DNA from: Nitrosomonadales bacterium
GTDB lineage: Bacteria; Pseudomonadota; Gammaproteobacteria; Burkholderiales; Gallionellaceae
DNA length: 64,000 bases
Reading direction: 5' to 3'
Assembly: GCA_016199835.1 (NCBI GenBank)
Contig: JACQFX010000048.1
Location: 1 to 64,000, forward strand
How positions within the stretch are numbered: the first letter of the stretch is position 1; each line of letters starts with the position of its first letter. The notes below the pieces were generated by a model, which was not told the DNA's origin, searched no databases, and was given only the letters and a program-made list of their open reading frames with translations. Shown piece after piece: positions 18,327 through 42,222 of this stretch. Position numbers and translations under genes: made by a program.

Positions 18327-21300
18327 TCATCGCACAGCATCCTTCATCGCCTGTGTGATCCGCTCCGTCTCCACGCTCACCGCCGTTACGCGCATCAGCA
18401 GGTCTATCACTTTTTCCTTGTAATCGGCAAAGCGGTAGGTGTCGAATTTCTCGCGGATGGTCGGGTCTTTGGGTTTCTTTTCCTTGTACTGGTCGAGCAC
18501 CCATTCCAGCGCGCAGCGGTTGCCCAGCTTGTAGTCCCACGCTTCGGGCGGAATGCCGCGCAAGGTGGTTTCGCTATCCAGCGCGATGCTGCCCGCGTCT
18601 TTGTCGGCGCGAAGCAGAGCTTTGGGTGGCAAGCCTGAAGCGCGGACTTTCTCGTCGGGGATGTCGGTGCGCTTAAGTTTGAATGGTTCCACCGCTTCGT
18701 AGCCGATGTGCAGTTTCATCAACGCCTCGCCCCACGCCGCCCATTGCCAGAAGTCCGCATAGAACGGGATGCGCGGGAATTCGCGCTTCAAATTCAGCGC
18801 GTACTTTTCGCGGTACAGCGGATCGTGCAGTACGGCGTAGCAGTAGTGGAAGATGGCTTCCTTGGTGATCTTCTGAGTCTTGCTCCCTCGCCCGCTTGCG
18901 GGAGAGGGCTGGGGAGAGGGGGCTTTGTAGTGGGCGGTAAATTGTTTAAGTGCCCAGTCGGTGATGTTGTCCGCGCGGGTTTCTTTTGTTTCCCCAACGG
19001 TGAACGGCATGTAATACGTACCGCCATTTCCCCGCTTTAAGAGATTCAAATCGGGCGGATCATTATGCGCAAGGACGCAGAGTTCGTTGTGTGACGAAAT
19101 GCAATGAACAGCAAAATAAGAAACCTTTAAGTCAGTTGGAAAAACATCTGGTGCTGCGCCACGTTCATCTACGAGGACACCGGAGTCGTAAAACCATTCA
19201 ACCAAAAAAGGCCGTCGATACATTGGCCGTATCCGGGTTCCATCGAACTCTTCAATCTTGCCTTGTTGTACACGACGCTTTAGGTTTCGCGACCATTTGA
19301 TAGCGTTCTGTTTCGTATCCGTTGTCAAGCGTTCGCAGAGATACGCCGCTTTCTTTTCCAACACTATCTTTTCGGCATCTGTGACCCACTCATCTCGATT
19401 CGTTGAGACTCCTAGCGAAAATAGCTTGAATATCGCCCGCTCTTTCCCCGCCGTCTTCGCCGCCTTGGTGGCCTTACTCGCTAGCGGAATCAGAGTATCG
19501 AAGTCATTGCTGCTCAAATTGATCCAGTTGTGATTCTTGTCCGGCTGCACTTCATCAAAGTGCAAGCTGCGCGCCGCGTTGTTGGCGAGGAATCCAAGTT
19601 TTTCTTCTGCCGTTTCCATTTCAGGGCGGCGGATATAGTAGACGCGAGCTACCCTCTCCCCAGCCCTCTCCCGCGAGCGGGCGAGGGGGCCGCTCTTTTT
19701 GATAAAGAAGCTGATTGCCACGCCAGTCTGGATGCCGAACACGTTGTGCTTGGTGCCGCTCAGCTTGGGGTTGGCGCGCACGTCGCCGCCCAAGTCCACC
19801 ACGTAGATGTCGCTGAATTCCTGCGCCACAGTTTTGCGGAAACCATCGAAGGTGCGGCTCTCGATGAAGCTGCGGTTGGTAATCAAGGCCAGCACGCCGT
19901 TCTCGCTCAGCCTGTCACTGGCCCAGCGGAAGAAGCGCGCATACATGTCGTACAGCTTGGTCTTCTGCGCGGTGCTTTCGTGGATGTAGGTGTCCTTGAT
20001 GCGTTTGTCTATCGCCGGGTATTCGCGGTTTTTGTTGTTGTCGTTTTCATTCGCCTGATTGGCGTTGTACGGCGGATTACCGATGATGACGCTGATGCGC
20101 TTGCCGTTCTGCCGCTTGATGCGCGCGACGTTCTCCTCAGACACGCTGCCAAAAATATCCGCCGTCGTTCCCTTGGCTGCGGTGTGCAAGCCGACGTTAT
20201 CCAGCGTATCCACAAAACACAGGTTGGGGAATTCCTCGTAGCTGCCGCTGATAGCAGCGTAGGTGGCCTCGATGTTCAGGTTGGCAACGTAGTAAGGCAG
20301 GATGGCGACTTCGTTGGCGTGCAGTTCGTTGAGGTATTTGTGCTTGAGCTTGGCGGGTTGACCGCGAAAGTGTTCCAGCAGTTCGCAGATGAAAGTGCCA
20401 GTTCCCGTTGCCGGATCGAGGATTTCCACGTCCTGGTCTATCAGGTTTTTGCCGAAGTGTTTTTCGGTAAGCCAGTCTGCGCCGTCTATCATGAAGCGCA
20501 CGATTTCGTTGGGCGTATACACCACGCCCAGCCGGTCGGCAGCCTTTGCGTTATAGACCTTGTAGAAATTTTCGTAGATGACCTTGAGGAAGGTTTGCTT
20601 TTCGCCGTGGCTGCTGATTTGCGCGGCGGCGGCGCGGATGGCGGCGTAGTAGGTTTCCAGCCCCTTGAGCGTTTGTTTCTTCAGGCTGCCGGTAAAGAAC
20701 TCGCCTTCCAGTGCATATAGTTCGCGCGCCACATTGTTGTGCTGGTGAAAATCGCTGTCATCGAACACCTTGGCAAAAATTTCTTCGGTGAGGATGTGCT
20801 GGATCAGCATCTCGCGCACATCGGCCTCGGTGAGGCCGGGATTGATCGCTTCCTGCGCGTGAGTCAGGAATTTTGCGGCGGCGGCGCGAAACTTTGCGTT
20901 ACCACTTTCCTGTGCCGCAATCATGCTGCGCAACGCTTCCAGCACGGCGGGCAGGTCGGCCTTGAATTGTTCTACCGCCGCGCGAAAGCCCGCTATCTCG
21001 GGGCGCTCAAAACCGAAGAACAGCTTCAACAGCTTGGCCAGCGCATGGGTGTCTGTCATGTCGCAACGCATCGCCTCGTTGCGGTTTTGCCACAGCACGG
21101 CGGTCACGTCATCCGAAAAGATGATGTTGTCCTGCGGGTAGCCCTTCTTGAATTTTTTGCTGACTTCCTCGTCGAGATAGTCATCGGCGTCTTTAGCTTC
21201 CCAATAGCCGAGCGGCATGCGCAGTTCGTGCAGCAGCGCGCCGTCCACCGTGATGTTGGTTTTCGTCGCGGTCTTGAGCGGGTACTCGGCCAGAAAAACC

Positions 21301-41019: not shown

Positions 41020-42222
41020 TCAAATATCCAGCAATACCCGCCCGGGAAATTCCAGCGCCTCCTTGATGGCGACCAGGAACAGCACGGCATCGCGGCCATC
41101 GACGATGCGGTGATCGTAGGACAGCGCAAGATAATTCATCGGACGGATCACCACCTGGCCGTTCTCTGCGACCGGACGATCCTTCGTTGCATGCACACCG
41201 AGGATGGCGCTCTGCGGCGGATTGATGATAGGCGTGGAGAGCATGGAGCCGAACACGCCGCCATTGGTGATCGAGAAAGTGCCGCCGCTGAGTTCTTCCA
41301 GTGTGAGCTTGCCGTCTTTGGCGCGTGCGGCGAAATCGGCGATCTGCTTTTCGATGTCGGCCAACGAAAGTTTATCCGCGTCGCGCAGTATGGGCACCAC
41401 CAGGCCGCGCTCGCTGCCGATGGCCACGCCGATGTCGTAGTAGCCGTGGTAGATGATGTCGCTGCCGTCTATCGAGGCGTTGACCAGCGGAAATTTCTGC
41501 AAAGCCGCGACCGCCGCCTTGACGAAGAATGAAGTGAAGCCGAGCTTCACGCCGTGCTTCTTCTCGAATGCATCCTTGTACTTGCTGCGCAATTCGATCA
41601 CCGGCTGCATGTTCACTTCGTTGAAGGTGGTGAGAATGGCGGCGTTCTGCTGCGATTGCAGCAGGCGTTCGGCGATGCGCTGGCGGATGCGCGTCATGGG
41701 AACGCGCTGCTCGATGCGGCCAGTGGCAATGCCAGAAGATGGGGGGGATGCCATGCTTCTACCCCCTCCCCCACCCTCCCCCTGCATGGGGGAGGGAGTT
41801 AGTTTGGCTTCCAGCACAACGCTCAGCACATCATCTTTAGTCACCACGCCATGCCGCCCGCTGCCCTGTAATCGGCTGACATCGACATCATGCTGATGTG
41901 CCAGTTTTCGCACCGACGGAGATAACATAACTCCCTCTCCCCTTGCGGGAGAGGGCGGGGGAGAGGGGGCGGTTTTAGCAACACCCTCGCTATCCAGCAG
42001 TGCGATCACCTCTCCGCTTACCACTTTCTCGCCATCACCCTTGATAATCTTCGTCAGCACGCCATTGCCGGGCGCAGGCAATTCCAGCACTACCTTGTCG
42101 GTCTCGATGTCGATCAGGTTTTCGCCCTCAAGAACCGCTTCGCCTGGCTGCTTGTGCCAGGTCAGCAAAGTTGCTTCGGATACGGATTCGGACAATTGCG
42201 GCACTTTGATTTCAATGTCCAT
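41020..42222 (-). CDS. sucB: 2-oxoglutarate dehydrogenase E2 (dihydrolipoyl succinyltransferase)
   Basis: Core of the OGDH complex; transfers succinyl groups to CoA. The 400-residue protein has a lipoyl domain (1-76; lipoylated K43 in ETDKVVLE), an E1/E3-binding domain (about 99-134; [15 protein letters not shown]) and a catalytic domain (about 165-400; [10 protein letters not shown]). Both linkers contain a palindromic repeat translated in frame: [13 protein letters not shown] at about 85-97 and [14 protein letters not shown] at about 140-153. Overlaps sucA by 11 bases. lpdA (E3) does not follow. Confidence 0.96.
41761..41799 (+). repeat. Palindromic repeat copy D, in the second SucB linker
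   Basis: About 39 bases (CCCCTCCCCCACCCTCCCCC... TGGGGGAGGGAG). More diverged than copies A-C but with the same layout, and inverted relative to copy C. Encodes the Gly-rich linker between the E3-binding and catalytic domains. Confidence 0.7.
41931..41970 (-). repeat. Palindromic repeat copy C, in the first SucB linker
   Basis: 40 bases, closely related to copy A (minus strand CCTCTCCCCCGCCCTCTCCC then GCAAGGGGAGAGGGAG). Encodes the Pro-rich linker [13 protein letters not shown] between lipoyl and E3-binding domains. Confidence 0.8.

Follow-up and report, generated by a model that had tools for sequence, protein, structure and literature searches.

A repeat resembling the Box C / PIT / TM triplex motif, in frame within protein genes of Gallionellaceae

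The stretch of DNA analysed here (the window, C25:1-64000, 64,000 nucleotides) comes from a Nitrosomonadales bacterium of the family Gallionellaceae, whose genome (G000; GenBank assembly GCA_016199835.1) amounts to 2.81 Mb in 69 contigs. It carries four copies of a short, GC-rich repeat (copies A to D) inside two unrelated protein genes. By layout and letters the repeat appears to be of the Box C / PIT / TM triplex type, and it has very probably multiplied as a small dispersed element whose in-frame insertions into conserved enzymes of iron-oxidizing and certain related bacteria are apparently tolerated in loops and linkers.

The repeat and its copies in the window

On its C-rich strand the repeat consists of a C-tract, 3-4 nt, a second C-tract, a loop of ~5-6 nt and a G-tract; the core unit is ~35-41 bp long, and both a short tail and an arrangement in inverted pairs are frequent. 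An earlier reading of the window from its letters and open frames (the sequence-only reading) had described a palindrome layout shared by the four copies. The common layout stands, as a three-tract repeat, but with its extra C-tract it is not a plain palindrome, and copy D is a variant (CCCCCTCCC..CCCTCCCCC..GGGGGAGGG) rather than a form with CCCTCTCCC. A covariance model, built from five sequences that include copies A and B, recovers all four copies, and their sites were upheld when the positions were re-read.

Copies A and B lie in the gene for a Type ISP restriction-modification enzyme (18327..21434, minus strand), a single open frame of 1035 amino acids with matches to Type_ISP_C (6.9e-78), ISP_coupler, Eco57I and N6_Mtase. 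Copy A (C25:18883-18921, minus strand, E = 4.9e-11) is in sense orientation and gives the peptide APSPQPSPASGRGS; copy B (C25:19651-19689, plus strand, E = 5.4e-11) is antisense and gives GPLARSRERAGERV. The other two lie in sucB, encoding dihydrolipoyllysine succinyltransferase (41020..42222, minus strand, 400 amino acids; PRK05704 at 3.7e-170, TIGR01347 at 2.9e-157). There copy C (C25:41931-41968, minus strand, E = 5.3e-7), in sense, supplies a 14-residue peptide between the lipoyl and E3-binding domains, and copy D, the C-rich variant (C25:41761-41798, plus strand, E = 2.1e-3), in antisense, a 13-residue peptide between the E3-binding and catalytic domains. As that reading had it, the two copies in each host gene are mutually inverted, and every copy sits in an open frame.

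Alignment of the ISP enzyme with homologues (five of 23 homologue matches) left gaps, of 8-10 residues at copy B in all five and of 15 residues at copy A in four of the five. For SucB, aligned with 29 of 40 relatives, the outcome was divided. Linker 2, which holds copy D, has 37 residues; in 19 family relatives that lack a peptide of this sort it has 18-30, and a copy-D-like peptide occurs at this linker in 3 family relatives (linkers of 24, 29 and 31 residues). In these alignments copies A and B are clear insertions, and copy D elongates its linker relative to family members, which copy C does not.

The repeat is far more abundant than expected by chance: the exact palindrome CCCTCTCCC-N0-12-GGGAGAGGG occurs at 15 genome sites versus 0 for a reversed control pattern, and the window holds 1 match (N0-14) versus 0 in 100 shuffles. 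A wrongly spaced pattern matched 17 times and its control 13 times, and Rfam at gathering threshold returned three tRNAs and no repeat family in the window. The arrangement of pyrimidine tract, loop, purine tract, loop and third tract, GC-rich and with a stem of ~9 nt, is found in the 59 full-length copies of the genome, some of them mismatched or tract-shortened. The main form is symmetric, so that a mirror and a direct third tract are indistinguishable in it, and the C-rich variant fits the mirror by eye (an even chance for one variant); a mirror-repeat argument for triplex geometry was set aside as too weak. The flanks of the 59 copies contain no constant tag (at most 0.52 bits), and the C-rich variant often has TTCT ahead of its first A, i.e., TAGAA on the opposite strand. 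One subfamily among the non-coding copies (e.g., C1:9257, C33:34903, C30:174661) has the triplex core followed by a constant second hairpin (like ACAAGGACTCGCTACGCGAGTTTTA). A universal second hairpin downstream was considered and rejected: a stem of at least 6 lies downstream of 19 of 148 copies and upstream of 11, the mean for shuffles being 3.2, and the downstream stems are partly a second repeat or the one subfamily.

Copies within genes and loops filled repeatedly

The covariance model gives at least 65 usable sites in the genome, a lower bound because 150 of 712 first candidates were scored; the 65 sites remained from 105 rows after removal of second readings of the same palindromes and of four distinct weak places (E 1.9 to 6.7). 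Beyond this genome the distribution is patchy but wide. The repeat is present in 52 of 60 Gallionellaceae genomes, with 0 to at least 111 matches per genome (111 candidates were scored in each relative, and counts near 111 are lower bounds). The repeat pattern is matched in 91 of 398 genomes of the phylum, the control pattern giving 3 matches in two genomes, and 132 plasmid records match as well; of 60 such records looked at, 56 had no gene under the match, one had a hypothetical protein and three were unannotated, the gene table being incomplete.

Copies were called coding where one frame was open across the repeat with a coding score on both sides, using codon scores trained on the long frames of the window (score above 4 with 20 codons per side in G000; above 5 with 25 codons per side in relatives). 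The count inside and outside genes that the sequence-only reading had suggested came to 22 of 59 full-length copies in frame within genes, with the other 37 failing the coding test. Among the 22, CobB accounts for two rows that overlap and one MmeI-type gene for two more, and copy A is counted by homology (its upstream codon score was negative, -4.3); short matches with coding calls in PrmC, LeuRS and AmgK, the last being another element, were left out. The hosts are UvrD, an AddA-like protein, GcvPA, ThiL, a YbbP-like permease, CobB, an OppC-like permease, MurC, ApbE, a CusA-type efflux pump, DNA polymerase I, MetH, PriA, HrpA, HsdR, the MmeI-type enzyme, SucB and the ISP enzyme, as named by family models, some of which scored below curated cut-offs.

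Coding copies were also found in relatives, where 23 of 89 (29 genome-best and 60 further listed places) passed the test; 20 of the 23 hosts were domain-scanned, and they include PheT, LeuRS, GlnE, MoeA, GDPD and Peptidase U32. For a tailed form (tail GC(A/G)AACG), 38 of 78 named loci passed (Sulfuricella 6/13, Thiobacillus and one Hydrogenophilus 6/8, Gallionellaceae 19/41, others 7/16), with eight loci domain-scanned; 11 copies belong to both the set of 89 and the set of 78. A caution follows for the proteins of these bacteria: segments such as PLPNPLPQAGEG or PSPQPSPASGRG derive from the repeat.

The sequence-only reading had placed the peptides in or near interdomain linkers. This describes the SucB copies, which lie between domains, but is too narrow, as copies in UvrD, MurC and MetH lie within family domains. 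By comparison with a solved structure, an inverted pair in DNA polymerase I sits directly ahead of the Klenow part. Inverted pairs of the C-rich variant (~110-130 bp), open in frame throughout, were seen in PolA (locus L068), MetH (L070), the MmeI-type enzyme (L087) and HsdR (L081), with inserts of roughly 30-50 residues.

Homologues with empty sites further reveal the insertions. In UvrD the segment between EFQDTN and F-VGDDDQS was readable in 29 family genomes; its length is exactly 17 residues in 21 of them and 35-53 residues in the other 8. The MurC site is filled in 4 of 30 readable genomes, two of the four having been included as already known to be filled (best matches in 30 of the 60 genomes were used for each protein). 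Comparison with solved structures gave ~50 additional residues for MetH, ~22 for UvrD and two additional segments for MurC. MurC also carries a second, unrelated in-frame insert of ~33 residues (GCDTLPAKPADCGSNRSV..., residues ~273-313) in the present genome (L063, contig C43) and in genome G198 (L277), common to two genera and absent in seven other compared MurC sequences.

The two common spacer forms contain no stop in any of six frames, so open frames through the repeat need no special explanation; a TAA spacer introduces stops into two of the six. Coding copies use all six frames (13, 12, 8, 5, 4 and 2, with 4 unassigned; n = 48, by motif labels of our own). An avoidance of stop-containing forms in coding copies beyond expectation, also raised by the sequence-only reading, did not reach significance: the TAA spacer occurs in 3/45 coding versus 20/103 non-coding copies (Fisher p = 0.052, with the strand of relatives' copies assigned by a rule of thumb). 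Since all six frames occur, and since coding and non-coding copies of the genome fit the model equally (Mann-Whitney p = 0.80), selection against other insertions offers the best explanation of the frame rule, in preference to a coding signal.

Certain loops have been filled more than once. For a nitrogenase-type protein (Oxidored_nitro family), here called NifN-like, 26 homologues were sorted by eye into 10 empty, 8 with the repeat in sense, 4 in antisense and 4 with other or decayed inserts. The loop is filled in genome G217 and empty in its two sisters, G015 and G188, in a strongly supported clade. The UvrD loop holds two insert types that differ in frame and tail, and the CusA loop different repeat subfamilies in two genera. 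Four of the filled NifN-like loops carry another element nested within the repeat. An in-frame element, nested or solo, with peptide TTSHSTKPASGQVAGY or close to it and with the hairpin GCCCGCAAGCGGGC, was seen at L308, L311, L326 and L329 in NifN-like proteins, and the same type of element occurs at L416 (UvrD, genome G010) and at L090 (AmgK, G000:C16:32424).

Origin and spread of the copies

In the proposed course of events, the repeat would have built up its numbers as a small dispersed element in Gallionellaceae and in certain other bacteria (Sulfuricella, Thiobacillus), entering DNA in either orientation by insertion or copying. As the common forms are stop-free in six frames and would yield short peptides rich in Pro/Ser/Gly or in Arg/Glu, an insertion could survive purifying selection where it preserves the frame and falls in a tolerant loop or linker, others being lost or remaining intergenic. 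The copies would likely arise by transposition-like copying, the inserted peptides would likely be disordered and located at the protein surface, and selection alone may set the frame rule. The suggestion of a mobile repeat, made from the window, is supported by presence and absence between relatives, but no transposition was seen and no mover found.

Several points weigh against this account. The coding calls depend on codon scores, some antisense-type matches among the named loci may be shadow frames, and the samples from relatives are biased toward strong model matches. In SucB, linker 1 with copy C has 24 residues versus 19-34 in the family, hence no net gain, and linker 2 is as long in seven order-level relatives (31-43 residues) as in the present protein. 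LeuRS and PriA compared with solved structures had no clear net insertion. For a naked copy, the comparisons yielded no near-identical pair of filled and empty sites in which the junctions are clean and a target duplication is present. Finally, all eight sense alleles of the NifN-like protein read GRRKKQ, with the others mostly GKRKKQ, and the sense alleles also share a tail, so part of the re-use may reflect allele exchange, or ancient inheritance followed by losses. A 7-base candidate for a target-site duplication in G217, noted by eye, may be the element's own tail and is not claimed.

At the NifN-like loop, the tail and the adjacent change common to the sense alleles are consistent with a mostly passive spread, in which an immobile repeat rides in miniature inverted-repeat transposable elements (MITEs) or is carried between species along with its host gene through homologous recombination. 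Hitchhiking does happen, because in one relative, G200, a repeat pair is contained within an element of ~200 bp that has CTAGTATC/GATACTAG ends in most of 14 aligned copies; MITE hitchhiking is thus a route seen in this one relative. As a general explanation passive spread is unlikely, though of some weight. A scan for the CTAGTATC/GATACTAG ends, the one MITE type sought, found them at 0/59 copies of the present genome and 0/89 copies of relatives (the scan caught 9/12 known G200 positives, and also missed a G200 copy among the 89), and the same loops hold different subfamilies or orientations. The G200 MITE (L207-L215) has a Box C inverted pair and many similar copies; other sampled members of that genus have 0-4 repeat matches.

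Re-use of loops also allows a more speculative extension of transposition-like copying, offered here with considerable doubt: that a copying machinery other than that of the REP-associated tyrosine transposases (RAYTs) recognizes the single-stranded triplex or hairpin form of Box C and prefers certain protein-coding loops (UvrD, MurC, NifN-like, CusA, GcvP), so that separate lineages would be hit at these sites time after time, in both orientations, and other elements would come to nest in the inserts. If so, these repeats would form a class of protein-remodelling mobile DNA with target preference.

It is improbable that the peptides or the DNA structure are useful, as flexible linkers or in regulation or replication pausing, and are kept by positive selection. 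The linker positions in SucB and ahead of the Klenow part would suit such a role, as would the equal model fit of coding and non-coding copies given above. Against it, the hosts are unrelated, close relatives do without the insert, and the use of all six frames indicates that no single peptide is kept.

More improbable still is that the repeats are repetitive extragenic palindromes (REPs) which a RAYT (Y1/HUH) transposase mobilizes in trans, the mechanism suggested for GTAG REPs. Two Y1_Tnp matches in the genome, one of them in the window, and the frequent TTCT-A ahead of the C-rich variant, which places GTAG after its G-rich strand, are in keeping with this idea. With Y1_Tnp counts as a RAYT proxy (PF01797 also covers non-RAYT Y1 transposases), repeat matches did not follow Y1 counts (Spearman -0.09, p = 0.48, n = 60 genomes): eight genomes with 25 to at least 111 repeat matches had no Y1 match at E 0.001 (some of these genomes being 85-93% complete), and five genomes with 8-14 Y1 matches had only 0-4 repeat matches. 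On these counts a RAYT was rejected as the mover. The repeats adjoining the Y1 gene of the window are of a different type, GTAG..CGCATTGC; this weak Y1/RAYT-like gene (59595-60194) is followed by two GTAGGGTGCAATAAGCGAAGCGCATTGC repeats (~60205-60325), a REP type distinct from Box C.

That the segments are ancestral low-complexity linkers alike by chance is hardly credible and is refuted for copies A and B: SucB linkers are naturally Ala/Pro-rich, and the SucB linker lengths given above fit this idea, but a near-exact likeness over 36-39 bp recurs at dozens of unrelated sites, the control pattern gave 0, homologues exist without the segments and, with 37 of 59 copies failing the coding test, the genome does not lack matching intergenic copies.

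Relation to Box C and other known repeats

The repeat can be compared with several known systems. MITEs (ERIC, Correia, YPAL) are likewise non-autonomous and sometimes make in-frame gene fusions (PMC2229807), but most have terminal inverted repeats and target duplications, neither of which is shown for the naked repeat here. Cod-2 is, by its description, similar in being a very small repeat in various coding sequences with frame-dependent peptides (PMC2267715); in a table of the same paper the E. coli BoxC row bears no genic/intergenic letter. GTAG/CGTC REPs also have intragenic members; repair genes, such as those for UvrD and DNA polymerase I, are frequent hosts, and the CGTC type resembles the present repeat in lacking a dedicated transposase (PMC3733652). 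These REPs have a GTAG or CGTC tag at one end, whereas the present repeat has an extra C-tract and its main form no constant tag; the CGTC (or TGTC, CCTC) tag with a CCA tail, hallmark of CGTC REPs (PMC3733652), was sought and no such constant flank was found.

The Rickettsia palindromic elements (RPEs) are palindromic repeats in frame in genes (PMC2229807, PMC10969869). They resemble the present repeat as short palindromes that occur both intergenically and, in frame, in numerous unrelated conserved genes, and differ in being 105-146 bp long and in Rickettsia, compared with units of 35-41 bp, or ~110-130 bp as pairs, GC-rich and in Betaproteobacteria. The resemblance to RPEs drawn by the sequence-only reading therefore stands for behaviour, that is, in-frame insertion in many unrelated genes; the sequence is of the Box C / PIT type.

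The Box C / PIT / TM intrastrand-triplex motif is reported from E. coli, where Box C / PIT was noted in the 1990s, and from more than 260 bacterial genomes, with triplex formation in vitro for the E. coli sequences (PMC4666352). Its 23 E. coli sequences share the three tracts, spacing and loops with the present repeat, and inverted neighbouring pairs, patchy copy number and the lack of an adjoining mobile gene in E. coli are further likenesses. Two 9-mers of the repeat match that paper; six exact DNA or peptide strings match no paper in the literature searched. A search of titles and abstracts, with few subscription papers covered, found none on Box C / PIT inside genes, which is not proof of absence. 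PMC4666352 describes the E. coli copies as invariably intergenic and reports no mobile elements associated with them; in the present sets, by contrast, between roughly one quarter and one half lie in frame in genes. In-frame palindromes were already known, and the novelty lies in a repeat of triplex type that enters proteins and does so repeatedly at the same loops. Filled and empty alleles of one loop constitute a natural experiment on the spread of a repeat and the gain of protein loops.

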